Below are positions 43,229 to 62,379 of a DNA stretch of 64,000 nucleotides, piece by piece. Source of the DNA: Fibrobacter sp. UWB4 (GTDB lineage Bacteria; Fibrobacterota; Fibrobacteria; Fibrobacterales; Fibrobacteraceae); contig NZ_MWQI01000011.1 of the NCBI RefSeq assembly GCF_002210345.1, forward strand, positions 1 to 64,000, read 5' to 3'. The translations under genes and the position numbers were made by a program. The notes below the pieces were generated by a model, which saw only the letters and a list, made by a program, of their open reading frames with translations, did not search any database and was not told the DNA's origin. The first letter of the stretch is position 1. The number at the start of each line of letters is the position of its first letter.

Positions 43229-46200
43229 ATGCCAGGTCTTTTTACGGAAGCGACACGCGTTCAACTGACTGCGATTCAGCATTTGGCTCGCATCGGCTAC
43301 ACGTATTTAGGAAAAATTTCAGAGTCCGGCGCAACGCCGGCGATTCCCTACGACTCAGAGACGAACATCCTTGTGGACATTTTTGCGGAGCAGTTCAAGA
43401 AGCTGAATCCGGCTGCGACTGTTTCTGCACAGAGCGTGCTTTCAGACATTCAGAAGGAACTGGATGACGACGATTTGGGCCAGCAGTTCTACAAGCGTTT
43501 GACCAGCTATTCTCCGCTTCGCCTAGTCGATTTTGAACACCCGGAAAACAACACGTACCATTGCACGGCGGAATTCACTTGCAAGAATGGCGATGAAAGT
43601 TTCCGCCCCGACATTACGTTGTTCATCAATGGGCTTCCGCTCGTGTTTATCGAGGTCAAGAAGCCGAATAACGTAGGCGGCATGGTGGCCGAAAGCAAGC
43701 GGATGAACGACGAGCGGTTCCCGAAGAAAAAGTTCCGTCGCTTTATCAACATCACGCAGTTGATGATTTTCTCCAACAACATGGAGTACGATGCCAAGGG
43801 CGGTGTTGTCCCGATTGAAGGCGTGTTCTATTGCACGGCGGCGAAAAACGAAGCGCGTTTCAACTGCTTCAGGGAAGAAAACCCCAAGCGTGCGGCAATC
43901 GCGCCGTTCCACGCCAATTATCCTTATTTGCCGATTCCTGCGGATCTCGAAAAGAGAGTCCTGATGGATTTCAATGTTCCGGTCTTGAAAGAGAACCCGG
44001 AATACAAGACGAATCTAGACATCAATACGCCCACGAACCGCGTACTTACTTCTATGGTGAGCCCGGAGCGTTTGCTCTTTTTGCTCAAGTACGGCATCGC
44101 TTACTTGCATGTTGAAAAAGAGAAGGATGGCCAAATCGAGAGCCGCCACGAAAAGCACATCATGCGTTACCAGCAATTTTTTGCGGCCATGATTATCCGT
44201 GAAAAACTGGCAGCGGGTGCGACATCCGGCATTGTGTGGCATACGCAGGGCTCGGGCAAGACGGCGCTTTCTTTCCACTTGAGCAAAGTCCTCAAGGACT
44301 ATTACGCCAAGCAGAACAAAGTCGCGAAATTCTACTTTATTGTGGACCGCCTGGATTTGCTAGAGCAGGCGACCGAAGAATTGAGCAATCGTGGCCTCAA
44401 GGTGACTACGGCGAATTCCCGCACGGAACTCATGGAGCAGTTCCGCACGCAGCAGGCCTTGCAGAGCAACGCCGGTGTCGATGAAATTACCGTGGTGAAC
44501 ATCCAGAAATTTGAAAACGATACTGAGAAAGTGGATCTTCCGAATTACGCCACGAATTTGCAACGCGTGTTCATTATGGACGAAGCGCATCGCGGCTACA
44601 AACCGGGCGGATGTTTCCTTTCGAACCTTTTCAATGCCGACAAGAATGCCATCAAGATTGCGCTTACCGGCACGCCGCTCATCGGGAGCGAAAAGGCGAG
44701 TTGCAAGGTTTTTGGCGATTATTTCCACACGTATTATTACGACCGTTCCATTCAAGACGGCTACACGCTAAAGATTATCCGCGAAGATATCGAAACCAGT
44801 TACCGCAAAAAGCTGAACGATGCTTACGAAAGCGTGCAGAAACTGGTGGAGAAGGGTTCTGTCTCGAAGGACATGATTATTCGGCACCCCACATACGTGA
44901 AGGCGTTGCTCCGCTACATCATCAACGATTTGGTGAAGTTCCGTGCCATGCAGGGCGACAACGACCTTGGCGGCATGATTATTGCAGAATCTTCGGAACA
45001 GGCACGAAACTTGTACAAGTTCTTCAATGAGATTCAGGACGAACTCAATGAAAACCGCATCCAGAAAATCAACTTGAAAGCGGGCCTGATTCTCTTCGAT
45101 AGCGATGACAAGGAAACCCGCAAGCAGATTATCAATGATTTCAAGAAGAACTACACGATTGATATTCTGATTGTCTTCAACATGTTGCTGACGGGTTTTG
45201 ATGCACCGCGCCTCAAGCGATTGTATTTCGGTCGCAAAATCGAAGATCATAATTTGTTGCAGGCAATTACACGCGTGAATCGCCCGTACAAGAATATGAA
45301 ACGCGGATTCTTGATTGACTTTGCCGACATCAAGAAGAATTTTGACGAGACCAATGCCGCGTATTTGCAGGAACTGAACCGCTACAACGATGCCGATACT
45401 GACCCGGACGATAACTTGCCCGACATGTACAACCAAGTCATGGAAGACAAGGATGCCCTTATCAACCACATGAAGGTGGCACGTCAGGCTCTGTTCAGTT
45501 ATACCACCGACAACGCGGAAGTTTTCTCTACAGAGATTTCTAGCCTTGAAGACAAGAAGGTTCTGATTGAACTGCGCAAGGCGTTGGAACTCGCCAAGGA
45601 CGCGATGAACCTTGTGCGTACTTTCGGTGACGATGCCCTTAAAAAGGACTTTGAAAAGCTGAACATCGAAAAGTTGCCGCTCATGCTTTCGGAAGTGAAC
45701 CACCGCATTGCTATTATCAACCAGAAAGAGGCATGGACCAATAGCGAAGCGACTCAGTTTGCCGTGAACGAAGCCATGATGAACATCGAGTTCAACTTTA
45801 GCTGCATTGGCACTGAAGAACTGAAAATCATCGATAACGGTACGGAACTGCGAGAAAAATACAAACGCGCTCTTCGCGGATTCCTGGATAACTTCGATCA
45901 CGAAGACCCCGTATTTGTTGAATTGGAACAGGAGTTCAAGCGCATCTTTGACAAGCACGGCTTTACCCCGGAAAACCTTGCCGTTTATAACGAGCAAAAC
46001 CAGGCGATGAATGACATCCTGAAACGCCTCGAAGATCTTCGCAAATCAAACGACGCCCTCTTGCGCAAGTACAATGGCGACACGAAATTCGCCTACGTTC
46101 ACAAGCGCATCCGCGAAGAGAACAAGGCTCGCGAACCCAAGCACCAGGCACCAATTATCTCGAAGTTCGACGAAGAAATTGTGCAGGCTCTCTTGACAAT

Positions 46201-46405
46201 CAAGGGGACGATTGACGCGAAGGTTTTCGACCGCAACGACATCCTCAAACAGGACGCCTACTTCGGCAAGACCGTGATGAAAGAAATTGCAGACGGACTC
46301 GCACACTTCCCGCAAATCAAGCCCGAAATGCCCGATTACCTGTTTATCCAGCAGCGCATCGCCAAGCAGTACATAAACCAGTATAACGCCTACTACGGAA
46401 GCTAA
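43229..46405 (+). CDS. hsdR: Type I restriction enzyme, R subunit HsdR
   Basis: 1058 residues. The N-terminal nuclease has the PD-(D/E)xK set: Asp128 (RPDITLF), Glu142 and Lys144 (FIEVKKP). The translocase has Walker A GSGKT (341-345), DEAH at 451 (IMDEAHRGY) and ALTGTPL. A helical C-terminal part contacts the methylase core. It cuts unmodified DNA after ATP-driven translocation. It is the first gene of the locus; fic, hsdM and hsdS follow on the same strand. Confidence 0.95.
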   Translation: MPGLFTEATRVQLTAIQHLARIGYTYLGKISESGATPAIPYDSETNILVDIFAEQFKKLNPAATVSAQSVLSDIQKELDDDDLGQQFYKRLTSYSPLRLVDFEHPENNTYHCTAEFTCKNGDESFRPDITLFINGLPLVFIEVKKPNNVGGMVAESKRMNDERFPKKKFRRFINITQLMIFSNNMEYDAKGGVVPIEGVFYCTAAKNEARFNCFREENPKRAAIAPFHANYPYLPIPADLEKRVLMDFNVPVLKENPEYKTNLDINTPTNRVLTSMVSPERLLFLLKYGIAYLHVEKEKDGQIESRHEKHIMRYQQFFAAMIIREKLAAGATSGIVWHTQGSGKTALSFHLSKVLKDYYAKQNKVAKFYFIVDRLDLLEQATEELSNRGLKVTTANSRTELMEQFRTQQALQSNAGVDEITVVNIQKFENDTEKVDLPNYATNLQRVFIMDEAHRGYKPGGCFLSNLFNADKNAIKIALTGTPLIGSEKASCKVFGDYFHTYYYDRSIQDGYTLKIIREDIETSYRKKLNDAYESVQKLVEKGSVSKDMIIRHPTYVKALLRYIINDLVKFRAMQGDNDLGGMIIAESSEQARNLYKFFNEIQDELNENRIQKINLKAGLILFDSDDKETRKQIINDFKKNYTIDILIVFNMLLTGFDAPRLKRLYFGRKIEDHNLLQAITRVNRPYKNMKRGFLIDFADIKKNFDETNAAYLQELNRYNDADTDPDDNLPDMYNQVMEDKDALINHMKVARQALFSYTTDNAEVFSTEISSLEDKKVLIELRKALELAKDAMNLVRTFGDDALKKDFEKLNIEKLPLMLSEVNHRIAIINQKEAWTNSEATQFAVNEAMMNIEFNFSCIGTEELKIIDNGTELREKYKRALRGFLDNFDHEDPVFVELEQEFKRIFDKHGFTPENLAVYNEQNQAMNDILKRLEDLRKSNDALLRKYNGDTKFAYVHKRIREENKAREPKHQAPIISKFDEEIVQALLTIKGTIDAKVFDRNDILKQDAYFGKTVMKEIADGLAHFPQIKPEMPDYLFIQQRIAKQYINQYNAYYGS

Positions 46406-47442: not shown

Positions 47443-49092
47443 ATGAACATCAAAGACAAGACCATTGCCCTTATTGACTCTCTCAAGGCCACTTGCCAAA
47501 CGTACGGCATGGGCAATGACGGCAACGAATACAAGATTATCACCCAGGTGTTTCTGTACAAGTTTATGGCCGACAAGTTCGGCTACGAACTCAAGAAAAT
47601 CAATGACCCTTGCCTGAAGGCACTCAAAAAATCCGACAAGTGGGAAGAGGAATACGCGAAACTCTCCAAGGCCGACCGCGAAAAGGTGAGCCTCTTCTTG
47701 CCGCCCGAAGTCCCGGTGTTCAAGCCCGACTACCTGATTGCAAACCTCTGGAACAAGCAGGCCAAGGGCGATTTCGACGTCATCTTTGACGAGACCATGG
47801 TCGCCATCGCAAAGGACAACCTGGACGTATTCTACACCAAGACCGCGCAAGAAACGAAAATCCCCATCTTCGAAAAGCTCACCATCTTTGTGACCGACGA
47901 CGCCCAGCGTGCAAACTTCGCCCGAGCACTTGTCGATAAACTCGTGAACTTCAGCTTCGAAGACGCCTTCGCCGAACACTACGACTTTTTCTCGGACATC
48001 TTTGAATACCTGCTCAAGGACTACAACACCGCAGGCGGCGGCAAGTACGCCGAATATTACACCCCCAAGGCCATCGCAAAAATCATGGCCCGCCTCTTGG
48101 TGGGCGACAACGCCGACTTGCACAACGTAGAATGCTACGACCCCAGCGCAGGCACCGGCACCTTGCTCATGGCGCTCAGCCACCAGATTGGCGAAGACCG
48201 CTGCACCATCTTTGCGCAAGACATCTCGCAGCGCAGTAACAAGATGCTCAAATTGAACCTGCTGTTGAACGGACTCGTATCTAGCCTCGATCACGCCGTG
48301 CAGGGCGACACCCTCCTGGAACCCTACCACAAGAGCGACGATGGCAAGAGCCTCAAGCAGTTCGATTATGTTGTGAGCAATCCGCCCTTCAAGATGGATT
48401 TCAGCGACACCCGCGACGATATCGAGAAGAAATGGAATGCTCGCTTCTGGGCAGGTGTGCCGAAAGTCCCGAACAAGAAAAAGGAGAGCATGGCCATCTA
48501 CACCTGCTTTATCCAGCACGTGGTAAACAGCATCAAGGCTGGCGGCAAGGGCGCCATCGTCATCCCCACCGGGTTCATCACCGCGAAATCCGGCATCGAG
48601 CACAAAATCCTCGAACGCATCGTTGACGAACACATCGTCTATGGCGTGGTCAGCATGCCGAGCAACGTATTCGCGAACACCGGCACCAACGTGAGCGTGC
48701 TCTTCTTCGACAAGACCCGCAAAAAGACCGACAACGACAAAGTCACCCTCGTTGACGCAAGCAAACTCGGCAAGGAATACAAGGACGCGAATGGCCTCAA
48801 GAAAGTCCGCCTCGAAGACGACGAAATCGAGAAAATCGTGACCACCTTCCGCAAGGCCAAAGCCGTCGAAGACTTCAGCGTGGTCGTGACCTACAGCGAA
48901 GTCAAGGAAAAAGGCTACAGCCTGAGCGCCGGCCAGTATTTCGACATCAAGATAGACTACGTCGATATTACCGCCGACGAATTCAACGCCCAGATGAAAG
49001 CCGACACCGAAGAACTCGCCGCCATGTTCGCCGAAAGCCACAAACTCGAAAAGGAAATCCAGAAACAGTTGGGCAACTTAAAATTCAATTAG
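47443..49092 (+). CDS. hsdM: Type I restriction-modification methyltransferase HsdM
   Basis: 549 residues. SAM-binding motif I is DPSAGTGTLLMAL (about 233-245) and the adenine-methylase motif NPPF is at about 313 (VSNPPFKMDF). The N-terminal helical domain and C-terminal coiled segments for HsdS contact are visible. With two copies of HsdM and one HsdS it methylates the recognition site. It starts immediately after the fic stop. The sequence shows strong housekeeping-like codon bias, unlike the hsdS specificity domains. Confidence 0.95.
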   Translation: MNIKDKTIALIDSLKATCQTYGMGNDGNEYKIITQVFLYKFMADKFGYELKKINDPCLKALKKSDKWEEEYAKLSKADREKVSLFLPPEVPVFKPDYLIANLWNKQAKGDFDVIFDETMVAIAKDNLDVFYTKTAQETKIPIFEKLTIFVTDDAQRANFARALVDKLVNFSFEDAFAEHYDFFSDIFEYLLKDYNTAGGGKYAEYYTPKAIAKIMARLLVGDNADLHNVECYDPSAGTGTLLMALSHQIGEDRCTIFAQDISQRSNKMLKLNLLLNGLVSSLDHAVQGDTLLEPYHKSDDGKSLKQFDYVVSNPPFKMDFSDTRDDIEKKWNARFWAGVPKVPNKKKESMAIYTCFIQHVVNSIKAGGKGAIVIPTGFITAKSGIEHKILERIVDEHIVYGVVSMPSNVFANTGTNVSVLFFDKTRKKTDNDKVTLVDASKLGKEYKDANGLKKVRLEDDEIEKIVTTFRKAKAVEDFSVVVTYSEVKEKGYSLSAGQYFDIKIDYVDITADEFNAQMKADTEELAAMFAESHKLEKEIQKQLGNLKFN

Positions 49093-49688: not shown

Positions 49689-49698
49689 AGATTTGAAT

Positions 49699-50901
49699 AT
49701 GGAATTGAAACGATATAAATTAGGTGAAATTGGTGAAATCCGTATGTGCAAGCGGATTTTGAAAGAAGAAACGAATTCTGTTGGTGGTGTTCCATTCTTT
49801 AAAATAGGCACCTTTGGTGGTCGAGCTGATGTTTTTATTACTAGAGAAAAATTTCAAGAATACAAAAATGCTTATTCCTATCCTAAAAAAGGGGATGTTT
49901 TAATATCCGCAGCCGGAACTATTGGAAGAACTGTTGTATTTGATGGAAAAGATGCTTATTTCCAAGATTCAAATATCGTTTGGATAGAAAATGATGAAAG
50001 CAAAGTTTTAAATGAATATTTGTTCTATTGCTATAAAAATATTCGTTGGACAACATCTGTAGGAAGCACTATTCTTCGGTTATATAACGATGATATTCGA
50101 AATACGGACATTATTGTTCCCCCTTTGCCGGAGCAAAAGAAAATCGCCTCGGTCCTTTCCGCATTAGACGACAAAATCGCCCTGAACAAAAAGATGAACC
50201 AGAAACTCGAAGCAATGGCAAAACGCCTATACGACTACTGGTTCGTCCAATACGACTTCCCCGACAAAAACGACCGCCCCTACAAAACCACCGGCGGCCC
50301 CATGACCTACAACCAAATCCTCAAAAGGGAAATTCCCGAAGGTTGGGAAGTAAAAAGCCTTTTCGATTGTTCTGATGTTTTATATGGATTTCCATATGCG
50401 ACAGAGCCGTTTGATGAAGAAAATTTGGATATTTCAACGAAACCATATTCTGTAATTCGTATTCGTGACATAAAGGACAATACAATTTCTGCCAAAACAA
50501 CAGAAACCGTTGATGATAAGTATAGGACGAAAGTGAATGACCTTTTAATTGGTATGGACGGCTACTTCCATATGAGCTTTTGGCCTAGAAATGATGATTA
50601 CGTAAATCAGCGAATCACTCGTATTCGACAAAAAGAGTTGTCTGTTATGATAATTTATCATCAGATTGCCCCTTTTATCAAGTTCAAGGAAGACCAGGCG
50701 AAAGGATCAACTGTCGGACATTTGAGTGATAAGGATATGAAACAGATTAATATCCTTGTCCCGAATAATCCGCAACTATCAGAAAAGTTTGATAGCATTT
50801 TAAATCTTATCACGAAGAACAAACAAGAAATCTCTCGCCTTACAAAACTACGAGATAAACTATTGCCCTTGTTGATGAACGGACAAGTGGAGGTCAATTA
50901 A
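49699..50901 (+). CDS. hsdS: Type I restriction enzyme specificity subunit HsdS
   Basis: About 400 residues from ATG at 49699 (AGGAAAG 8 bases upstream). Two target-recognition domains are each followed by conserved helices: PPLPEQKKIASVLSALDDKI (about residues 145-164) and the shorter C-terminal LTKLRDKLLPLLMNG. The first TRD has GRADVFITREKF and SAAGTIGRT. The central spacer is GC-richer and matches the hsdM codon style, whereas both TRDs are AT-rich, a mosaic typical of TRD exchange. It determines the bipartite DNA target. Confidence 0.92.
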   Translation: MELKRYKLGEIGEIRMCKRILKEETNSVGGVPFFKIGTFGGRADVFITREKFQEYKNAYSYPKKGDVLISAAGTIGRTVVFDGKDAYFQDSNIVWIENDESKVLNEYLFYCYKNIRWTTSVGSTILRLYNDDIRNTDIIVPPLPEQKKIASVLSALDDKIALNKKMNQKLEAMAKRLYDYWFVQYDFPDKNDRPYKTTGGPMTYNQILKREIPEGWEVKSLFDCSDVLYGFPYATEPFDEENLDISTKPYSVIRIRDIKDNTISAKTTETVDDKYRTKVNDLLIGMDGYFHMSFWPRNDDYVNQRITRIRQKELSVMIIYHQIAPFIKFKEDQAKGSTVGHLSDKDMKQINILVPNNPQLSEKFDSILNLITKNKQEISRLTKLRDKLLPLLMNGQVEVN

Positions 50902-51050: not shown

Positions 51051-52856
51051 ATGATTACAAATATTACAGTGAAAAATATAAAAGGATTTGATGATTCTTC
51101 AAGGGGAAATATTGATTTAGAATTGGTTCCAAATAAGGTGAATATACTGATTGCTCCAAATGGATTTGGCAAATCTTCGCTTGCCGCTGCTATTTCCTCA
51201 TTGACTAAAAAAGGATTACGAGTTGATGTTGAAAATAAATTTAGGAAAGATGAGTCTAGAGAGCCCTTTCTATCAATGACCTTAAATGGGGAGATTTTGG
51301 AGGACGCAAAATTATCGAATGAAATCACGTGTGTTGTGATAAAATCCCATGTAGAAGCGACTTCAATTCAAAAAAATATGGGAAAGTTTTCGTCAGTGAC
51401 AAATCACTTGGATATCTCAGATATTGTTGTGAAAAATACAATCCCTCCTAAAGCGGAGATATCGTATAAGTTTGAAAGCAAGAAGAAAGCTTTTGGTGTG
51501 AATGGCAAGATTCTTTTTAATATAAAAGACTTATTTGGTGATCCTAAATTTGTTAAAATATTGGATAATTATAAGGATTTATTTGATAAAATTTGTTCAA
51601 CAAGGCGGCGCTTGGCCTTGATAGAGAATGTGGTATCTAAAATAAATACTTATAAGGGAACTACCGAAAAAATAAAAACATTGATAGATGAGTCTATATT
51701 TACAGAAATAAAAAGAGATGAATGTTATTCTCAAGTTGCTCTCGTATTAAACGAAAATGGATTTGCTAAAGATGCTTTAGATGAATTCATTATAATCTAT
51801 CAAATAATTAAAATATGGGGAGGTGAAATAAAGAAATATATTAACTGTTTTATGGATCGTTATAATTATGAAAAAGAAAAGCGCCTTTTTGATGACTCAT
51901 TGAATTTGTTAAGTCCTGAATGGAAAGGTATAAAGACAGAAGAAATAAAAAAATCCTTGGTAGTTCGATATCCTTATGCAAATGAATTGTCTAATGGGCA
52001 GCGAGATGTCTTGACTTTTGTGACAGAATTGATTAAGTTCAAGACTAAAATTAAAGAAGGGAAGAAATATTTTTTGTTAATAGACGAAGTCTTTGATTAT
52101 TTAGATGATGCAAATACAATAGTTGCTCAATACTATTTGACGAATTTTTTAAATAAAGATTTATCTGCTGAAATTTATGTTTGTGTATTGACTCATTTGG
52201 ACCCAAAATATTTTAGAAGTTATATTTTTTCATCAAAGAAAATCAATATTCAGTATCTCTTGAAAAGTTTACCTATTTCAGGAAATGCTATGAAAATGTT
52301 TATTGCACATAGAGAAGGTTTGTCAAATAAGAATGTGCCGAATTCCCTTTATAACAACTTGTCCAAATATCTGTTTCATTACAACCCGCAAAAGGTTGAT
52401 TATTCATCGGAATTAACATCTTCAAAATCTGGTTTCCGAAAAACTTTTGGAAAAACAGAAGTCTTGAAAAATTATCTTATTGAGGAATTGAATAAGTATT
52501 TTTCAGAACGTGAACCGTATGAGCCTTATGCTGTAGCTATGGCACTCAGACATAGAGTGGAAAAAATTTGTTATGAGAAAATAGAATCAACATTAAAAAA
52601 TGATTTTTTAGAGATTCATAAAACTACAGACAAACTTGATTTTTGCTTAGATCATGGTTTTGATGTTCCAGATGTTTTTTATATTGTTTCTGCAATTCAC
52701 AATGAAGCGGATCATTTGAAATTTGACCCTAATAATCCGAATGATTTTTTGGAAAAGAGTATGGTTTATAAATTACAGAATAATGTAATCAAACAAGCTC
52801 TTAAAAAGCTATTTGAGTACAATGGCGAACCAATTTCTGTCGATTCAATAATGTAA
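51051..52856 (+). CDS. ABC/RecF-type ATPase, first gene of ATPase-ATPase-HNH operon
   Basis: 601 residues. Walker A is APNGFGKSS (35-43), the ABC signature is LSNGQRD (about 312-318), Walker B is LLIDEVFDYLDD (about 343-354) and THLDP follows as H-loop. The middle is short and lacks the long coiled coils of SMC/Rad50 and the zinc hook. The C-terminal 200 residues are helical and unrecognised. AT-rich, unlike its left neighbours. GAGGTC gives the ribosome site. Two further genes follow; the set looks like a defence module. Confidence 0.85.
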   Translation: MITNITVKNIKGFDDSSRGNIDLELVPNKVNILIAPNGFGKSSLAAAISSLTKKGLRVDVENKFRKDESREPFLSMTLNGEILEDAKLSNEITCVVIKSHVEATSIQKNMGKFSSVTNHLDISDIVVKNTIPPKAEISYKFESKKKAFGVNGKILFNIKDLFGDPKFVKILDNYKDLFDKICSTRRRLALIENVVSKINTYKGTTEKIKTLIDESIFTEIKRDECYSQVALVLNENGFAKDALDEFIIIYQIIKIWGGEIKKYINCFMDRYNYEKEKRLFDDSLNLLSPEWKGIKTEEIKKSLVVRYPYANELSNGQRDVLTFVTELIKFKTKIKEGKKYFLLIDEVFDYLDDANTIVAQYYLTNFLNKDLSAEIYVCVLTHLDPKYFRSYIFSSKKINIQYLLKSLPISGNAMKMFIAHREGLSNKNVPNSLYNNLSKYLFHYNPQKVDYSSELTSSKSGFRKTFGKTEVLKNYLIEELNKYFSEREPYEPYAVAMALRHRVEKICYEKIESTLKNDFLEIHKTTDKLDFCLDHGFDVPDVFYIVSAIHNEADHLKFDPNNPNDFLEKSMVYKLQNNVIKQALKKLFEYNGEPISVDSIM

Positions 52857-52895
52857 TGAAGTCAACATCCACTTAATTTGCAGAACAGGTAACAA

Positions 52896-55100
52896 ATGTT
52901 TAAAATAGATTCTTTAGAAATAAGAAAAAATAAAGAGGCGAACAAGTCTCTTTACAAGAATTTGAAACCGGGATTGTATCTATTTCATTCCATAGAACCA
53001 TCCAATTTATGGGGTGAACATGTGAATATACAAGCTATTGTTGGAAAGAATGGCTCTGGCAAAAGTTCGTTAATGGATGTTCTGTATATGGCTATTAACA
53101 ATTTTGCCTATATGTTCGAACGAGGACATCACAGAGCCGCCGCAACATCATTATGCTATGTTAAGGGTTTATATGTAAATGTTAAATATTCGTTGGATGA
53201 TGTTCAATATGTTCTTTCGTGCGATGGGAATTCTACTAAATTAATACGAGTCAATACCGAAGAAACTATTGCAAATTTTCATCTGAATTCAAGAAATGCA
53301 ACTAGGGAAGAAATTGATGATAATGCCATTCGTACCATCGTAAAGAGTTTTTTTTACACGATTGTTTCTAATTATTCCATGCAATCTTTTATTTCATCTA
53401 ATTATGCATGTGATACTAATGTCTATAACATAGATGAACACCGAGATGATGATTCCGAAAATGTAAATAGTTATGGACGATCTTGGGTTGATAATCGAGA
53501 TAGCGAAAATGATTCAAAAGAAAAAATATGGTTGAATAGTATTTTTCATAAAAATGACGGATATGTTCGTTCTATTACGCTGAATCCATATCGAGATAAT
53601 GGTGTTATTAATATGGAAAAAGAAAAAAAACTTGCAAAGTATAGATTAGTAGCGTTACTGATTGATGGAGCAAAAAGCAAAACAAATATATTTAGAGACT
53701 ATGCATTAGATAGAATAACTTTTTCTTTAGACAAGGATTTTGTAAAGCGTAAATTCCCTAATTATTCTATTAAGAAATTGATTAATTCTGTAATAAAACA
53801 ACTGGAGGACAAAGATAGTGATTTATTTAATATTGTGGAATCATTTAATTTGGAAATTGATTTTATAAAAAAACAATTGAATAACAAAGATAGTGATTTG
53901 AATTATGTTTCTGAGTCAATAAAATTGCAGTTGATTGCATTGGCGTATTTGCAGAAGAAAATGGAAAAAATTATAGAAAATTATGAATCATATAAATTGT
54001 ATAGGTTTAATGAGAAATTATCGGTATATGACACTAATAACAAAAATAGAAAGAATCACCTTAAAGATTTATGCAAGCAAATAAAAGATGATCCGTCGCA
54101 TGTAGTGACCAAAATCAAACAGACGATAAATTTTCTTTCGTGTAGAAAAAATAATTTTTTTGAAGAAAATGAGACTAAATCAAAAAAATGGCTTGATAAG
54201 GAATTTACATATAAGCAATATTGTAGGGAAGGATTTGTTCGCTCTTACGCTTCTTTAGATGAGATTGTGGCAAGTTTCCCGCCTCCAATATTTAAGTATG
54301 AAGTTTATTTAAATAGAATTGTTTTAAATGATGTGGATAAGTATAAAAAACAAAAAAAATATCTAGGATGTATGGCTGTTGATGTTGCAAAATCAATGCA
54401 AAATCTTCCAAAAGAGGCTTTTTTTATTTCAACGAAAGGTGGTTTGTTGAATACAAAAAGAAATGGTAAAAGATGTGACGAATACTTTAACAGGGGAATA
54501 AACATAAAATGGAATGGGGAATATTGGAAAAGAGATGAGATAAATCTAAGCGAATTAAGTTCTGGAGAGTTGCAGATGATGCACACCCTTTCAACGCATG
54601 CATACCATATAAGAAATATAATGTCTGTAAAAAATGATGCAATAAAGTATCATAGTATAAATATGGTTTTTGATGAAGTTGAAATTTGTTTTCACCCAGA
54701 ATACCAAAGACAATTTATTTCTCGATTATTAGCTATGCTAAATGCTCTATGTAGGTTTGAACAAAATTGCAATTTCAACATTTTTATATTGACTCATTCA
54801 CCTTTCATTCTGTCGGATATACCATCATCAAATATTTTGTATATGGAAAATGGACAAATGTTGGATAAGAATAAATATGGGCTACAAGAGACCTTTGCGC
54901 AAAATGTAAGTGTGTTGTTGAATCAAAGTTTCTTCATGAATTGTTTTATAGGTGATTATGCGAAGAAAAAAATTGCAGAGATTATTGATGATATAATGAA
55001 AAAAAAGAAAACTAAACAGCATCAGTTGGAAACTCGTATAAACATGATAGGGGATGAATTTATTAAAAGCCAAATGAAGAAACGAATAGAGAAAGTTTAG
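52896..55100 (+). CDS. Second ABC-type ATPase (PtuA-like logic)
   Basis: 734 residues, not a copy of the first ATPase. Walker A is VGKNGSGKSS (49-58), signature LSSGELQM (about 553-560), Walker B MVFDEVEICFHPEYQ (from about 589) and H-loop LTHSPFILSDIP (about 632). This C-terminal arrangement is that of AAA_21-type ATPases paired with nucleases in defence. A long insert (about 100-540) has coiled segments with a repeated KQL(E/N)(D/N)KDSDL motif. The HNH gene begins 1 base after its stop. Confidence 0.85.
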   Translation: MFKIDSLEIRKNKEANKSLYKNLKPGLYLFHSIEPSNLWGEHVNIQAIVGKNGSGKSSLMDVLYMAINNFAYMFERGHHRAAATSLCYVKGLYVNVKYSLDDVQYVLSCDGNSTKLIRVNTEETIANFHLNSRNATREEIDDNAIRTIVKSFFYTIVSNYSMQSFISSNYACDTNVYNIDEHRDDDSENVNSYGRSWVDNRDSENDSKEKIWLNSIFHKNDGYVRSITLNPYRDNGVINMEKEKKLAKYRLVALLIDGAKSKTNIFRDYALDRITFSLDKDFVKRKFPNYSIKKLINSVIKQLEDKDSDLFNIVESFNLEIDFIKKQLNNKDSDLNYVSESIKLQLIALAYLQKKMEKIIENYESYKLYRFNEKLSVYDTNNKNRKNHLKDLCKQIKDDPSHVVTKIKQTINFLSCRKNNFFEENETKSKKWLDKEFTYKQYCREGFVRSYASLDEIVASFPPPIFKYEVYLNRIVLNDVDKYKKQKKYLGCMAVDVAKSMQNLPKEAFFISTKGGLLNTKRNGKRCDEYFNRGINIKWNGEYWKRDEINLSELSSGELQMMHTLSTHAYHIRNIMSVKNDAIKYHSINMVFDEVEICFHPEYQRQFISRLLAMLNALCRFEQNCNFNIFILTHSPFILSDIPSSNILYMENGQMLDKNKYGLQETFAQNVSVLLNQSFFMNCFIGDYAKKKIAEIIDDIMKKKKTKQHQLETRINMIGDEFIKSQMKKRIEKV

Positions 55101-55101
55101 T

Positions 55102-56082
55102 ATGTATAGATTTTTTATTGATGATGTTGAAACCCATGCTTCCGACGTTGCGAAAAAATTAATTAATGGGGTAAAAGGCCTACAACGTCCTGTTGTAAGA
55201 AAAAAAGATGGTAGTGTAGATGAATATAAAGGATTGGCCTTGTTGAAGTCAAAATTAAAAAATGTCCATGCTGATGATGGATATTTGGAATACATTCAAC
55301 ATATTATAGATCATTATGATGAGATTCTTACGCTACGCCCTTCTCAATTTGAGAAGTTTAAGGATGATTATTTCAATATCGCCGATGTTAATTTGTCAAC
55401 TAAATTTAAAATAGACAATGTACATCAAGAGTTTTATAAGCACGTTGCTTCATATATGTGCTGTAACACAGTGAAAAAGTATGTACGAAGAATTATGATA
55501 GATTCTTTAAAAATAAGAAAATGCATTTATTGCAATGATATAGAAATTCAGGAAATGGATCATTTTAAGCCAGAAGCTATGTATCCTTTTTTGTGTACAT
55601 CTTTTTTTAATTTATTCCCGTCATGTAAACGATGTAATGGCAAAAAAAATAAATGGACAGGAATAAATGAGTTTTGTTTATATCGGGAGAAGGAATCCGA
55701 GGATTGCAACCCATTTAAATTTGATTTTCCGGAAATTTTGGAAGATTATTTAACATATGAAAATGAAAAACATACCATAAAGTTTAGTAGTCCTAGCGGA
55801 TATGCAAAAGAAGAAATTGGCGATGCGTGTTTGGATATTGAAGGTCGTTATAATGATGTGCTGTCTGATGCTCGCAAACATTTGAAATCCGTATTAGATA
55901 AGTACAAACATCAGATGGGAAGTCTTCCTGCGACATTAAATGCGTGCTCAGAATTGGGCATTACAAAAAAAGATGAAATTGAATTTGTTCTTGGCGATTG
56001 CTATAAGGTGGAAGACATTCATAAAGATAGATTTGTAAAAATGACTATTGATTTTGGAAAAGAGACTGGAATGCTTAAATAG
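55102..56082 (+). CDS. HNH endonuclease (PtuB-like)
   Basis: 326 residues. The nuclease core is CIYC (141-144), MDH (His154), NLFPSCKRCNGKKNKW (Asn170, Cys175, Cys178): a complete ββα-metal fold with a structural zinc from four Cys. N- and C-terminal parts are helical and unrecognised. It follows the second ATPase by one base, the pairing seen in Septu (PtuA ATPase and PtuB HNH). It would be the effector that cuts nucleic acid. The extra upstream ATPase departs from standard Septu. Confidence 0.87.
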   Translation: MYRFFIDDVETHASDVAKKLINGVKGLQRPVVRKKDGSVDEYKGLALLKSKLKNVHADDGYLEYIQHIIDHYDEILTLRPSQFEKFKDDYFNIADVNLSTKFKIDNVHQEFYKHVASYMCCNTVKKYVRRIMIDSLKIRKCIYCNDIEIQEMDHFKPEAMYPFLCTSFFNLFPSCKRCNGKKNKWTGINEFCLYREKESEDCNPFKFDFPEILEDYLTYENEKHTIKFSSPSGYAKEEIGDACLDIEGRYNDVLSDARKHLKSVLDKYKHQMGSLPATLNACSELGITKKDEIEFVLGDCYKVEDIHKDRFVKMTIDFGKETGMLK

Positions 56083-56183
56083 ATTGTACCTTGGTATTGT
56101 GCTGAGCGGTGCCATACTTAAAAAAGGAAATTGCATAAAAGTTGGCTTTTTTATCTCCCGCCTTTGAATATAGGGATTAATCA

Positions 56184-56560
56184 ATGTGTTTAATTATTTG
56201 TGAAAATAGTTTTGATTTGCATCATAATCTGTCGACAAGCTTTTCTGATTATCGTAAATTTCTTGATGAAAAATATCCTGATGTGGTACCGGGAATTCTT
56301 GAAAATGAATACTTCTTCGGTGTAATGAATGAGGATGATTATTGGACTGATGTTGAAGACAATCTTTTCTTCAGTTATGAACGGATGCTTGAAGATTCAC
56401 ACGAAAAAAGCATACGCAGAATTGAAAAAAGAAGTGCGAAATCATTAAGGATGCGTATGAATTTTTCAATGCAGATTATGAAATGATGAATAAGATGATG
56501 CGGTTGTATTGTGATTATTTGGTGAAGAATTTGCAAAATGCTAGTGGTGCAAATGTCTAA
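56184..56560 (+). pseudogene. Frameshifted small gene
   Basis: The frame from 56184 gives MCLIICENSFDLHHNLSTSF... for about 75 residues to EDSHEK at a run of six A. From there the next frame gives KKAYAELKKEVR, and a third frame gives IIKDAYEFFNADYEMM to the stop at 56560. Joined, these make one plausible helical, acidic protein of about 125 residues, so two indels are likely. Unbroken, the first frame ends at 56486. Family unknown. Its last bases overlap the opposing gene. Confidence 0.5.
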
Positions 56561-57297
56561 CTTCCGAAAACTGTTTTTATAGACGATAGAATAGTCAGGA
56601 TTTCTTTTAGTGTTGGTGAAAGGCCGGAATTATTGGTATTAATTTCAATTTTGTCCAATTTCTTTATGAGCATATCTAGTTTTTTGTTTATTTTCCCCAG
56701 ATCAATCTCAACAGCATCCTTCGTCTTTTCGTCTTCTTTTCTAACGAAAATGATATCCTTGTCCTTTTTGAAGGTATCTTTTGCTCGTTGGACATATTCT
56801 TTATCGACATTCTTTAGGCAAAGACGGTCGAAATCAAAACTTTCCTTGCTGTTCTTTTTTATGAATTCTACATCCTTTACTGTAGCGAGAGAAGAATTGA
56901 TTCTTTTGAATAGCGAAGGTGCGGCATCTAATTCTTTAATAGTAATTCCTGCTTCTTCGGCAAGGCGGATAATAAGAGATGTTCCATTGGGGCCTGTGCC
57001 TGGATAACCTGATGTCAATCCGCTTTTGATAAAGACAACGAGGTCCCGATTTTCAAAGCATAGCATTAGGGCGTGATAATTTTGGCAAGTTAAAATGGTC
57101 ATGTCCGTAATTTTACGACTGCCATAAAGACGCTTCATAAAATCGTCAATGCAATACTGGGTCGCTCTAGTCGAACCTTCGTATTTGATATCGGTGCAAT
57201 AAAGGCCGAGCGGATCGTTATCGAGAATCATATAAAACTTTTTTTGAATGTGATTGGGAACGTTGTTAAACTCTTTTGGCCTTTGGAATGTTTTCAA
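56557..57297 (-). CDS. Unrecognised protein, last gene of the IetAS-containing operon
   Basis: 246 residues. An N-terminal mixed domain (MKTFQRPKEFNNVPNHIQKK; GLTSGYPGTGPNGTS near residue 95) is followed by a charged region and a C-terminal coiled coil (DLGKINKKLDMLIKKLDKIE). No membrane segment and no enzyme motif that I recognise. It overlaps the Abi-alpha-like gene by 32 bases on the same strand, so the two are translationally linked. Defence function is inferred from context only. Confidence 0.7.
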   Translation of the reverse strand: MKTFQRPKEFNNVPNHIQKKFYMILDNDPLGLYCTDIKYEGSTRATQYCIDDFMKRLYGSRKITDMTILTCQNYHALMLCFENRDLVVFIKSGLTSGYPGTGPNGTSLIIRLAEEAGITIKELDAAPSLFKRINSSLATVKDVEFIKKNSKESFDFDRLCLKNVDKEYVQRAKDTFKKDKDIIFVRKEDEKTKDAVEIDLGKINKKLDMLIKKLDKIEINTNNSGLSPTLKEILTILSSIKTVFGS

Positions 57298-58048
57298 TGA
57301 CAGATTCAGGAAGACTTTTGATTCTCCCGTTTGCTAAATCTATTCCAGAGGCGTTTTGATATCCTAGCGCATAAAGAAACATTTCTGCGCCTAAAACTGT
57401 TGGTACCATGATAATCCCATTCTTCGGTAAGGGAAATAAACATTTTGATTTGTCAGAATCAGAACCAATAGCGCAATAATCACCGATTAAACCTTGGCTT
57501 CTTAGACCCATAATTGAATGAAGGAGAATGGAACTTTTATTTTCTTCTTTCGAAAAGTCCATAGCTTTATCATAGTCATTAAGTGAAATGAGAATCTGTA
57601 TGTCTGGTTCGGTTCCTAAATTTATGGGATTATCTTTGAAAAGATTAAAGACTGAATAATAAAACAAATAGTGCAATCGCAATTGATATACAGACATTGC
57701 TTTTATCAAATTTAATATAGATATAGCTCTGTCGTCTCTGTCTATTGAAGTTCGTGAACTAGCTAAAACGCCTCCATAATATTCGGTAAGTATTTCGTTT
57801 TCGCAAAATTTTCCATCATCTATAATATTTTTTAAAACTCTTGGAGATACTTGACCGTTGTCGTTAATTCTATCGCCAAGTTTTTGTTTTGCGTTCGAAA
57901 AAATATTGTTGAGATTTATATTACATTTTTCAACAAGATTTTTTATTTCTCCACCTATATAATCTGCAGTAGGGCCTAGGATTTTCTTTAAAAGGTCCTT
58001 AGATGAGATGATTGTTGCTGTGGTTATGATTGAGACGTCAATATCCAT
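57266..58048 (-). CDS. Abi-alpha (DUF4393)-like protein
   Basis: 260 residues. The N-terminal part KILGPTADYIGGEIKNLVEK and the segment VSPRVLKNIIDDGKF...LTEYYGGVLASS follow the pattern of DUF4393 (Abi-alpha), a family found with phage-defence genes. A C-terminal half with LPKNGIIMVPTVLGAEMFLYALG is unassigned. It begins 21 bases after the IetS-like stop and overlaps the next gene by 32 bases, so it belongs to the same - strand operon. The family call is by pattern and moderate. Confidence 0.6.
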   Translation of the reverse strand: MDIDVSIITTATIISSKDLLKKILGPTADYIGGEIKNLVEKCNINLNNIFSNAKQKLGDRINDNGQVSPRVLKNIIDDGKFCENEILTEYYGGVLASSRTSIDRDDRAISILNLIKAMSVYQLRLHYLFYYSVFNLFKDNPINLGTEPDIQILISLNDYDKAMDFSKEENKSSILLHSIMGLRSQGLIGDYCAIGSDSDKSKCLFPLPKNGIIMVPTVLGAEMFLYALGYQNASGIDLANGRIKSLPESVIENIPKAKRV

Positions 58049-58069
58049 AATTTCTCCCTATTATTTGTT

Positions 58070-60286
58070 TTACTCCCACACGATATCTTCTTCAGCCTTG
58101 TTGCGGACTTCAACAAGAATTTCAACATTTACTCGGTTCACAAGCCAGCCACGCAGACTGCACTGCTGAATGAATTCGGCTATGCGATTTTTGCCGTTAA
58201 GTTCCTTAAGCGTGACAACTACGCCAAAGGGGAGTCCTTCGCCGTCATGCTGTCTTAAACGGTTCATTGTAGTGAGTTTAATACCCCAATTCCCATTGCC
58301 ATTGGCGTAAACCTTGCGGGGCTTGCTTCGGCTTGTCAAGTTGTCTGCGATATACTTGATGTTGTCCCATTTGCGGAAATACCGGCGGACATGTTCTTCG
58401 GTAAAGTCATTCAAGTCATCGATGTCATCGGGTTCTTCTTTGTTGCCCTTGATGCTTTGCACTCGTCCTTTGTCATTGATTCGTCCGAATCGGAGTTCCA
58501 TCTCGGTGTTGGTGTAATCAACTCCCTGGTTCCGTTCACAGTTGGGGTAATAGCAGAGTGTCGCCCTTGCTACAAAGGGGTGTGTGTCGTTTGCTATTGG
58601 GATGGGGATGCCGTAGTTATAGGTATTGTATTGTTGAGATTCGCCCATCAAAATAAAACGGATTTCGTCATCCTTACTGCGGATGATGTCGTCGATTTTT
58701 CTAGGAGCAACGCCATATCCGATTTTTGTCGATGATTCTTCATTTGGGGTCCAACCGGCGGCAGAATCTATGAGCATCGCTTTGGCGACTTCGCGACGTA
58801 AACCCATGACATAAATCAAGTAGGCCATTTTTCGGGCAATCCATGGCGCCGCATACGATGTTCCAGAAACTAGCGTTATGCCTTTAGGGCCATATGCAAC
58901 CATTTTTTTCTTATAGTCACCACCATAATAGCAGAGGTCGGGCTTGTTGTAGAATGAGAGAACGGGCCCAGTACGTGTATAAGACGCCGGTTTCTTTTCA
59001 AAATTTACGGAATTTACAACAATGGAATTGATGGAATCTGCCGGTGCTCCGATTCGCTTTTCACCGTTTTCGCCAACATCCTTATTCGTTCCTGCGATAA
59101 TGAACGTTACATCATTTTCGTATTGGATTTTGTCAAGGATGGCTGCTTCTGGAGAAATATAGTTCTCGGGAATTTCTTGTTTTGAACCGAGCGAAAGGTT
59201 CCAAACTTTGATGTTCTTATTTTCAGAGACAATTTGCCTGATGGTCTTTAATATGGTAAACGTGCTACCGACATTTCCGGCAAGAACGCCGAAATGCTTT
59301 ACGCGAAAATGGCCGCAACCGTCGTCAAGTTCCGGATTAAGCGCTGGGCCATCTACGATGATTGAAGAAACCGTGGTTCCGTGTTCGGAATCTTCCTTTT
59401 TGATTTCGATTTCATCGGAGACAGTGTTGACGTAATCAACCCATTTTGAAAAATAGGCGTTTGTATCGAAAACGGTATCAATGACGCCGATAATCGGTTC
59501 ATTTGTTGGCTCGGCAATGCGAGGCTTTACACCTTCGGCGGTTTCAAAATCGTCTTTAGTGTATTTGGAAATATCTGAAACGGCCATTGCAATAAGGTAA
59601 GGAGCCTTGTTGTTCAAGATGCTTACTTCATGAGGATTTAATTGCAATGTAGTTCCGTTGATGATTCTGTCATTGGTTATGACGATGCCGAAACTTCTTA
59701 GCAAATCCACAGCGTCTTCGCCGATGTCATAAATGGAAATAAGGGAGGTTTCGTCTAAATTTTTCGGAGCGCGGTCTTTTGCAAAATGACTTATATAAAA
59801 GCAATCTTTTACGCACTGCATAAATGGCGTTTTGTGCATAACTTTGATTGACCATGTGTCCGTAGATAATTGCTCTAGATCTTCGGCGGTGACTTCTCCG
59901 CCGAAATTGTTTTCAATAATTTTTTGGCAGTCATCTAGGCGCTCTATCGCCTTGGTGAATTCGCCTTTGTCAAAGCAGTAGGTGATGATATGTTTTGTTT
60001 TTGTCTTATCAAATTTTGCACCTACAATATGCTCGTCGCAATTGAATGCGAAGATACTACGCATACGGTTGCTTTTGGCAATAATGCGGTTATAATGTAC
60101 ATCTAGCAAAGCCTTGGATAGTGTAGAATCGTGCAACCATCTTGATTGCTCGATTTTAAGTTCCTGAATTAGCAATGCGACATGCTTTGCTGTTACGGCA
60201 CCTTTGCTGGGGAGCTTTGGGGCACCCGATGTTGTCGGATTAGGAGCGTGTTCAAATCGCCCTTTTAAAAGGAGAACGTCATTCAT
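58070..60286 (-). CDS. Subtilisin-like serine protease, IetS-like
   Basis: 738 residues. The S8 catalytic set is present: Asp270 (GVIDTVFD), His302 (EHGTTVSS), oxyanion Asn401 (IIAGTN) and Ser477 (SGTSYAAPW). No signal peptide, so it acts in the cytoplasm. An N-terminal about 250-residue domain and a C-terminal domain flank the protease. It overlaps the upstream AAA+ gene by one base. A cytosolic subtilase plus an AAA+ ATPase is the composition of the IetAS system, described on plasmids as a stability pair and later as anti-phage. Confidence 0.85.
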   Translation of the reverse strand: MNDVLLLKGRFEHAPNPTTSGAPKLPSKGAVTAKHVALLIQELKIEQSRWLHDSTLSKALLDVHYNRIIAKSNRMRSIFAFNCDEHIVGAKFDKTKTKHIITYCFDKGEFTKAIERLDDCQKIIENNFGGEVTAEDLEQLSTDTWSIKVMHKTPFMQCVKDCFYISHFAKDRAPKNLDETSLISIYDIGEDAVDLLRSFGIVITNDRIINGTTLQLNPHEVSILNNKAPYLIAMAVSDISKYTKDDFETAEGVKPRIAEPTNEPIIGVIDTVFDTNAYFSKWVDYVNTVSDEIEIKKEDSEHGTTVSSIIVDGPALNPELDDGCGHFRVKHFGVLAGNVGSTFTILKTIRQIVSENKNIKVWNLSLGSKQEIPENYISPEAAILDKIQYENDVTFIIAGTNKDVGENGEKRIGAPADSINSIVVNSVNFEKKPASYTRTGPVLSFYNKPDLCYYGGDYKKKMVAYGPKGITLVSGTSYAAPWIARKMAYLIYVMGLRREVAKAMLIDSAAGWTPNEESSTKIGYGVAPRKIDDIIRSKDDEIRFILMGESQQYNTYNYGIPIPIANDTHPFVARATLCYYPNCERNQGVDYTNTEMELRFGRINDKGRVQSIKGNKEEPDDIDDLNDFTEEHVRRYFRKWDNIKYIADNLTSRSKPRKVYANGNGNWGIKLTTMNRLRQHDGEGLPFGVVVTLKELNGKNRIAEFIQQCSLRGWLVNRVNVEILVEVRNKAEEDIVWE

Positions 60287-61326
60287 TATTTATCTCCTTG
60301 TAAAGCTCTGGCTACTTGGCTCTTTGAAACGCCAGAAAGTATTTCGATTTCGCGGACGGTGAAACCTTGTTCCTGTAATTGCTGCAAATCGCTTGGAATG
60401 TGGCCGATGAATTTTTCGTACAAGCGTCTAAGGTAATCGCACTCAATGCTTGCATCGCTGAATGCGACGGCTGTCTTGATGATGTTCTTGAGTTCACCTG
60501 GATTGGGGAGGCTTCCGTTCTTGCTGATAATCTTGAAGAATAGCCTCGTGTTCCGACCGGCAATTTTGAACTTGGTCAAGAAACTGTTTAAAATAGATTC
60601 TGCGATTTCTTGCAGGTCTTCTTGCGTGTATCTGTTGAAATCGACTATGGAATCGAAACGGCGGGAGAGCGCCTTGTCAAAGTGCTTGAAAAGGTTCGTC
60701 GTGGCGATGACGGTAATCTGTTCATTCAGGTTGTCGAAGCCCTTGAGAATGGCCGACGTGGCGCGGCCCATTTCGCGAAGGTCGTGAGAGTTGGTTCTGT
60801 CGAGGGCGATGGCGTCTATCTCATCGAACAGGACGAGAATTTTTTCAGGGTGCGCAAAATGGTTCAGCTCATCGAACAGTGCGGCGATGTTCTTTTGCGT
60901 CTGGCCGAGCTTGCTGTCGATGATGGGGTCGAAATCGACGCAGAACAGGTCGCGCTCCAGAATGCGGGCGATTTGCCGTACGGATTCGGTCTTGCCCGTT
61001 CCGGGTGCGCCCTGGAACAGGAACTTGTTGATTCCCATGTTCCGCTGGATGGCGTTGATGATTCCGATAACGTCCTTTTCAATGGGCGTGGGGAGCGGCA
61101 GCGAATCGTGCGAAGGGGCGACCTTGCGGAAAAAGGTCATCTGGTCTTCGTGCATTTGCGGCACAAAGGCGTTCGCGCTGGACATAAGGGCCATGATGTA
61201 TTCCGAAAGCTGAAAATCGCCGCTAGCGTCAAAATCCCGGGCAATTTCGTATGCCTCCTCGCGGAATGCGGGGTCGTTTTTCTCGGCGTAATAGCGAATC
61301 AGATTGATGACATTCTTCTTTTTCAT
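60286..61326 (-). CDS. AAA+ ATPase with C-terminal HTH, IetA-like
   Basis: 346 residues from ATG at 61326. Walker A is GAPGTGKT (106-113), Walker B LFDEID (166-171), sensor 1 ATTN (208-211), arginine finger region SRRFD (221-225). The C-terminus has an HTH (FTVREIEILSGVSKSQVARAL). It heads the operon; the protease gene overlaps by one base. The frame extends to 61377, but that part contains the promoter. The HTH suggests autoregulation or DNA sensing. Confidence 0.85.
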   Translation of the reverse strand: MKKKNVINLIRYYAEKNDPAFREEAYEIARDFDASGDFQLSEYIMALMSSANAFVPQMHEDQMTFFRKVAPSHDSLPLPTPIEKDVIGIINAIQRNMGINKFLFQGAPGTGKTESVRQIARILERDLFCVDFDPIIDSKLGQTQKNIAALFDELNHFAHPEKILVLFDEIDAIALDRTNSHDLREMGRATSAILKGFDNLNEQITVIATTNLFKHFDKALSRRFDSIVDFNRYTQEDLQEIAESILNSFLTKFKIAGRNTRLFFKIISKNGSLPNPGELKNIIKTAVAFSDASIECDYLRRLYEKFIGHIPSDLQQLQEQGFTVREIEILSGVSKSQVARALQGDK

Positions 61327-61348
61327 GGACTTGGCCTTCCTTGTCCTT

Positions 61349-61393
61349 AATATAAACAATATTGGGACAAAAGTCAAGCATTTTGGGACAAAA
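61349..61393 (-). promoter_or_regulatory. Promoter of the IetAS-like operon with direct repeats
   Basis: On the - strand, -35 TTGACT (61372-61377) and -10 TATATT (61349-61354) are 17 bases apart. On the + strand TTGGGACAAAA occurs at 61362-61372 and 61383-61393, exact copies offset by 21 bases (two helical turns), one inside the spacer. The C-terminal HTH of the ATPase could bind them. Confidence 0.7.
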
Positions 61394-61443
61394 TGTAAAA
61401 ATTATGGAAATTTATTAGACGAGGATTTTTGCTATAAATCCCC

Positions 61444-61701: not shown

Positions 61702-62379
61702 ATATTTAACGGCCAGATTGCCGAACTTTTTGCCACCTCGGTTCCAAATATCAATATACACATCGCCAATGTCTTGCAGGACAAGGAATTGGACGAAAAT
61801 TCAGTTGTAAAGTGTTACTTTACAACTGCCGCAGATGGCAAGAATTACAATGTCCGGTTTTACTCCTTGGATATGATCTTGGCCATTGGTTTTAGGGTCC
61901 GTAGTAAGCGGGGGACTCAGTTTCGAATTTGGGCGAACCAGCACTTAAAACAGTTCTTGGTGAAGGGTTTTGATATTGATGATGAGCGCCTCAAGAATCC
62001 AGATGGCAGGCCCGATTATTTCGATGAACTCCGCAAGCAGGATATTTATATTGCCAAGAATTATCTGACTCACGACGAAATCGATTCGCTGAACCGTTTG
62101 ACGGTGCTGTTCCTGGACTCTGCGGAATTGCGTGTGAAGGAACGCCGGGACTTGACGCTGGATTTCTGGCGCAATAATGTAGATGCCTTGCTTAATTTCC
62201 AAAATAAAAACGTGTTACGCAATGCAGGGCGTATTTCAAATAAGCAGATGGAATCGCATGTTTCTGAAATTTACGACGAGTTTGCCCTCCGTCGCAAAAA
62301 GCAAGATGCCATTGATGCCGATAAAGCAGACATGGAAGAATTGCGACAAATCGAGCAAGAGGTTGGGCGTAGAGGGTAG
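61702..62379 (+). pseudogene. RhuM-family gene, 5'-truncated and internally deleted
   Basis: The frame reads NGQIAELFATSVPNINIHI, DENSVV, then FRVRSKRGTQFRIWANQHLK, hallmarks of RhuM. There is no start codon before TTG at 61774, although homology begins near 61708 and a stop lies at 61642-61644, so the 5' end is missing. PDGRPDYFDEL joins directly to RKQDIYIAKNYLTHDEIDSL; full RhuM proteins have about 95 residues between these, so an in-frame deletion is likely. The C-terminus is intact. RhuM is often carried on islands beside restriction systems; its function is not settled. Confidence 0.75.

Follow-up and report, generated by a model that had tools for sequence, protein, structure and literature searches.

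An IetAS-type ATPase-subtilase pair in a Fibrobacter defence island, followed by two genes that are probably unrelated passengers

In Mycoplasma mycoides, an AAA-ATPase and a subtilisin-like protein (the TA132/3 pair) act as antitoxin and toxin, respectively, and cells that lose only the ATPase gene die (PMC8562856). The DNA analyzed here, a 64-kb stretch of the Fibrobacter sp. UWB4 genome that we call the window, carries two genes, ietA and ietS, that have the same order and encode the same kinds of protein; toxicity and neutralization were tested for the Mycoplasma pair. Like the IetAS/IteAS systems, the window pair consists of an AAA+ ATPase gene and then a gene for a cytosolic subtilase, with a one-base overlap and matches to the PADLOC profiles, but it is a divergent branch that falls far under the NCBIfam equivalog cut-offs. 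Two further genes, which we call gene 3 and gene 4, lie downstream. For gene 3, the closest described system is Abi-alpha (DUF4393, EF2833), a single gene of prophage 6 of Enterococcus faecalis V583 whose action makes infected cells lyse early (PMC6356687). Gene 3 is of similar length and is likewise a single gene, of a kind often found in prophages, but it scores below the Pfam cut-off.

ORF calls across the window place four consecutive genes on the minus strand between positions 56557 and 61326 (Table 1), as the initial annotation had described. The ORF coordinates also agree with its 1-base overlap between ietA and ietS and its 21-base gap between ietS and gene 3, but the 32-base overlap that it gave for gene 3 and gene 4 is a start-codon artefact. 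Every close relative of gene 4 starts at the ATG equivalent to position 57231, and DNA homology sets in at about 57231 to 57241 (blastn); therefore, the real junction is a 34-base gap past the gene 3 stop. A scan found no minus-strand terminator-like site between ietA and gene 3 and none between genes 3 and 4. Based on the 21- and 34-base junctions and the absence of terminators, the four genes may form one transcript in this strain, plausibly driven by the 61377/61349 promoter. The GC content changes in steps along the row, from 50.5% in ietA to 44.0% in ietS, 33.2% in gene 3, and 37.9% in gene 4. The row is flanked by an AbiH N-terminal fragment (56184-56486; 100 of about 260 aa), which is truncated in the related genome G125 too, and by a RhuM-family ORF (61774-62379) that is probably truncated or frameshifted: its 201 aa match a 252-position model in two stretches.

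Table 1. Positions of the features discussed (window coordinates unless a locus is named)
Feature	Position	Strand	Remarks
ietA	60286-61326	-	346 aa counted from ATG; mechanical ORF start is TTG 61377
ietS	58070-60286	-	738 aa
Gene 3	57266-58048	-	260 aa
Gene 4	56557-57231	-	224 aa, ATG start; mechanical ORF start is TTG 57297
ietA promoter/operator	61341-61396	-	TTTGTCCC direct repeats around -35, plus -10; promoter scan
ietAS module	58059-61396	-	Collinear (84-93%) with G133, G114, G118, and G076; ends at ietS stop (blastn)
Block collinear with G125 (L035)	51065-57241	.	95% DNA identity (blastn)
Type I R-M locus	hsdR 43229-46405, hsdM 47443-49092, hsdS 49693-50901		
RecF/SMC-like ATPase	51051-52856		Behind type I R-M; collinear in G125
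PDC-M62A/M62B-like ATPase-HNH pair	52896-56082		Behind type I R-M; collinear in G125
Protease-less IetA	L106:3770-4945, L107:3499-4674, L108:3699-4874, L109:3862-5037		
Protease-less IetA	L110:3781-4917, L038:1888-3063, L040:9880-11055, L043:123-1295		
Gene after gene 4	L040:5669-6415, L041:7251-7964, L037:6993-7706, L043:4474-5043, L044:6320-7015		

The earlier identification of the first two genes as IetAS-like is borne out by Pfam and PADLOC profiles, the 1-base overlap, and an intact Asp-His-Ser set. IetA matches Pfam AAA (3e-22) and the PADLOC IetA profile (4.9e-38, covering residues 54 to 344), has Walker A (GAPGTGKT, residue 106) and Walker B (LVLFDEID, residue 164) motifs, and carries an HTH-like segment at its C terminus (FTVREIEILSGVSKSQVAR, residue 322). 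IetS matches Pfam Peptidase_S8 (4.9e-35), the PADLOC IetS profile (1.4e-64), and phrog_3964 (3.5e-122), and its subtilase triad is intact (D270/H302/S477, plus N401). The catalytic residues are kept in relatives, the C-terminal tail of IetS is conserved, and so is the adjacency of ietA and ietS. A hydropathy check found no evident hydrophobic segment in IetS, which is a cytosolic subtilase, and a PDB sequence search with IetS gave no significant match. The NCBIfam equivalog scores are 106.5 versus a cut-off of 510 bits (IteA) and 153.4 versus 900 bits (IteS). Because these cut-offs are missed, we call the pair IetAS-type rather than an IteA/IteS equivalog, and for the same reason we only infer an anti-phage action of this branch.

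In order to survey related loci, each of the four proteins was searched in 168 genomes of the phylum. Four further genomes from the genus have close copies of IetS (88 to 97%), and the ietAS DNA is collinear with that of the four genomes listed in Table 1. No gene 3 or gene 4 match was seen adjoining ietAS in these four genus relatives, among which the G076 contig ends inside ietS; in G114, ietAS is not closely followed by any gene on its strand. In both G133 and G118, ietAS is followed by genes for a ThsB-type TIR protein, Nmad2, HMUDK_hel, and a thymidylate-synthase-like protein (L032:7172-10365 and L034:8925-12037), which suggests a DNA-modification-linked cassette in these two genomes. Farther afield, six distant ietAS pairs are found in Carnobacterium, three Macrococcus plasmids, Mesomycoplasma hyorhinis, and a gut phage-like contig. 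The window pair has clearer full-length similarity to these; for example, the M. hyorhinis IetS (L050) and the window IetS share 38% identity along their full length. Beside the distant pairs, no gene 3 and no gene 4 was seen (two of the three Macrococcus plasmids were inspected). The conserved four-gene order for which the initial annotation proposed a survey is not found in the other 167 genomes of the phylum or at the distant pairs.

AbiL systems are described as having two genes, and PADLOC models exist for AbiLi and AbiLii. Relatives of gene 4, which are present in 12 other genomes of the 168 searched, lie directly behind AbiLi (AAA_21) and AbiLii (RloB) genes in 9 cases (e.g., L035:3519-6453, L036:4442-7142, and L044:3351-6323) and alone in 2; in G152, a divergent copy is found in another order beside an AAA_21 (AbiLi-like) ATPase and a gene of 259 aa that matches no Pfam family. 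None of the 12 is beside ietAS. The AbiLi-AbiLii-gene 4 arrangement is found in both of two divergent types: of the six complete long-type loci, five have it, and of the ten short-type loci, four. From this distribution, gene 4 is possibly an unrecognized third component that recurs in AbiLi-AbiLii (RloAB-like) cassettes. In contrast, the window gene 4 comes after gene 3 rather than AbiLi-AbiLii, and no match to AbiLii was found in its genome, so that this gene is an apparent orphan copy of the third cassette gene. Gene 4 has no match in Pfam, PADLOC, or NCBIfam, in plasmids, phages, or viral contigs, or, for its profile, in a PDB sequence search (no significant match), and neither a fold nor a family is detectable for it (single-sequence model, pLDDT 41). 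In five genomes, gene 4 is itself followed by a gene of ~190 to 250 aa (MKILNLCTLAGFP... or close) that belongs to no Pfam family.

The Abi-alpha label given to gene 3 is weak: the match to Pfam Abi_alpha (PF14337; E = 0.054, 13.9 bits) is below the 29-bit cut-off. Three of five members of the gene 3 family touch the model, with a best E value of 0.0021, and in a profile-profile comparison with established Abi_alpha members from this phylum, gene 3 aligns collinearly but weakly (P = 0.0031, probability 10%, ~121 columns). At best, then, gene 3 would be a distant relative of Abi-alpha (DUF4393). There are no copies of gene 3 in the other 167 genomes of the phylum, no blastn match to its DNA in related ietAS or gene 4 loci, and no match in plasmids. 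Five relatives (L053, L055, L056, L057, and gp35 of Gordonia phage Toast) are known; until patterns from the conserved core were used, two viral scans returned nothing or only Toast, and a genome scan returned nothing. Toast gp35 is 29% identical to gene 3, and those from three bacterial MAGs are 53 to 67% identical in the core; one relative sits on a filamentous-phage-like contig. Each of the five is a single gene with neither ietAS nor gene 4 beside it (for L057, this holds for the upstream side, which is the one visible). This single-gene, partly prophage-borne spread matches that of Abi-alpha as a single prophage gene.

In the predicted structure of gene 3 (pLDDT 76, pTM 0.77), a long helix is joined by a core of helices and a C-terminal part that resembles a winged helix. 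Its matches are to winged-helix structures and are middling, the best (Z = 7.0) being below the level considered safe for naming a family; there was no viral structure match under an E value of 0.001, and the profile had no significant match in a PDB sequence search. Based on this model, we predict with fair confidence that gene 3 encodes a soluble helical protein with a winged-helix-like C terminus. No hydrophobic or membrane segment is predicted (maximum 19-residue hydropathy, 1.62), which argues against the earlier proposal that an Abi-alpha-type protein released by proteolysis damages the membrane; since there is no hydrophobic segment, we reject membrane action of gene 3. An IetS-type tail is absent from both gene 3 and gene 4.

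The DNA comparisons divide the row at sharp edges. In G125, AbiLi-AbiLii precedes gene 4 where the window has gene 3 and ietAS, and the edge of the G125-collinear block at 57241 is a module boundary. Between this edge and that of the ietAS module at ~58059, there is only gene 3, without a match in related loci. The simplest reading of these sequences is that ietAS, gene 3, and gene 4 are three independently moving modules that were assembled behind the type I restriction-modification (R-M) locus. The initial annotation had instead proposed a four-gene extended IetAS system, with genes 3 and 4 as effectors or targets of the protease and with membrane damage by a cleaved Abi-alpha-type protein. 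Such a system would fit a row that lies on one strand with short junctions and no terminator from ietA to gene 4. However, each part occurs elsewhere without the others, the module edges are sharp, and gene 3 lacks a membrane segment, so that we consider it very improbable, and as a conserved system it is largely refuted by these comparisons. In particular, ietAS occurs elsewhere without genes 3 and 4, and the gene 3 relatives have neither ietAS nor gene 4 with them. Because each part occurs without the others and the edges are sharp, we conclude that the row is a mosaic, very probably a two-gene IetAS module in a defence island behind type I R-M with two unrelated passengers downstream.

A local operon of ietA, ietS, and gene 3, in which the captured gene 3 is an added, independently acting Abi gene on the ietAS promoter, is compatible with the passenger reading and differs from it only in calling the linkage functional. 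The 21-base gap contains a ribosome-binding-like GGGAG and no promoter-like site, and there is no minus-strand terminator before gene 3, but this is a single case, and we regard such an operon as rather unlikely. It is also improbable that genes 3 and 4 are nonfunctional remnants in a decaying island. The nearby 100-aa AbiH fragment, the 201-aa RhuM ORF with its two separate profile stretches, and the lack of AbiL partners for gene 4 are all consistent with decay, but both genes have uninterrupted ORFs that are as long as those of their relatives.

Within the two-gene module, the ietA promoter has a -35 box (TTGACT, 61372-61377) and a -10 box (TATATT, 61349-61354) by promoter scan, and direct repeats (TTTGTCCCA) place TTGTCCC at 61385-61391 and at 61364-61370, 21 bases apart. 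These operator repeats are conserved in 12 of 13 ietA loci, with 1 to 3 bases differing in some, and the sequence farther upstream differs among the 13. DNA homology among ietAS loci sets in at about 61392 to 61404 (blastn). Together, the conserved repeats and the HTH-like end of IetA suggest autoregulation, with this end of the protein repressing its own promoter.

IetA homologues without IetS are present in eight genomes and are 81 to 89% identical (Table 1). Behind three of these genes lies AbiLi-AbiLii-gene 4 and behind a fourth AbiLi alone, and no IetS remnant was found between the orphan ietA and AbiLi. All eight have a C-terminal extension of ~45 residues with the end INLAEVY(R/K)K(A/G)EEEIVW(R/K) or a close variant, which resembles the C-terminal end of IetS (VENLVEVRNKAEEDIVWE in G133 and VQNLMEVYNKAEEEVEWK in G118). 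Compared with the G118 IetS, the orphan tail has up to 11 of 18 end-anchored identities, a value reached by 0 of 200,000 shuffles; resemblance to distant IetS is weak (3 of 18 with Carnobacterium). The orphans fall into two groups whose linkers are unalignable, with 86% nonsynonymous codons, while across both groups the tail is kept, with 37% synonymous versus 22% nonsynonymous change. An origin in which part of ietAS was deleted and the tail then came under selection would fit. Since protease-less IetA proteins carry an IetS-like tail in cis, the C-terminal tail of IetS may be a docking element for IetA. Tentatively, the tail could be a tag by which an IetA ring holds the protease, and one IetA branch could have lost the protease and become a self-tagged solo antitoxin; we regard this combined proposal as possible but doubtful. 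The graft is not general, since the ietA genes of two Ligilactobacillus salivarius plasmids, which have no ietS directly behind them, lack such a tail.

By analogy, IetA is presumed to be the antitoxin and IetS the toxin. Because the M. mycoides pair works in this way and the M. hyorhinis pair is similar over its full length, we infer that IetA would restrain IetS and that release would harm the cell. IetA, gripping IetS by the conserved C-terminal tail, would keep the subtilase inactive; a disturbance such as phage infection would free IetS to cleave cell proteins, and growth would stop. The HTH-like end of IetA would meanwhile repress the ietA promoter. Gene 3 may be a single-gene, Abi-alpha-like element that is probably read through from the ietAS promoter, and gene 4 may be a leftover of an AbiL cassette, or a gene in common with it, such as the one that a related genome has at the same place. 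The eight protease-less copies fit an antitoxin that is itself nontoxic.

These results dispose of the false lead of an effector-extended IetAS system, and they illustrate that genes packed closely on one strand of a defence island can mimic a multigene system when the row is a mosaic. The orphan IetA proteins with an IetS-like tail point to a contact between ATPase and protease. If self-tagged solo IetA is real, it would either give immunity against the toxin or serve as a regulator that has acquired a new partner.
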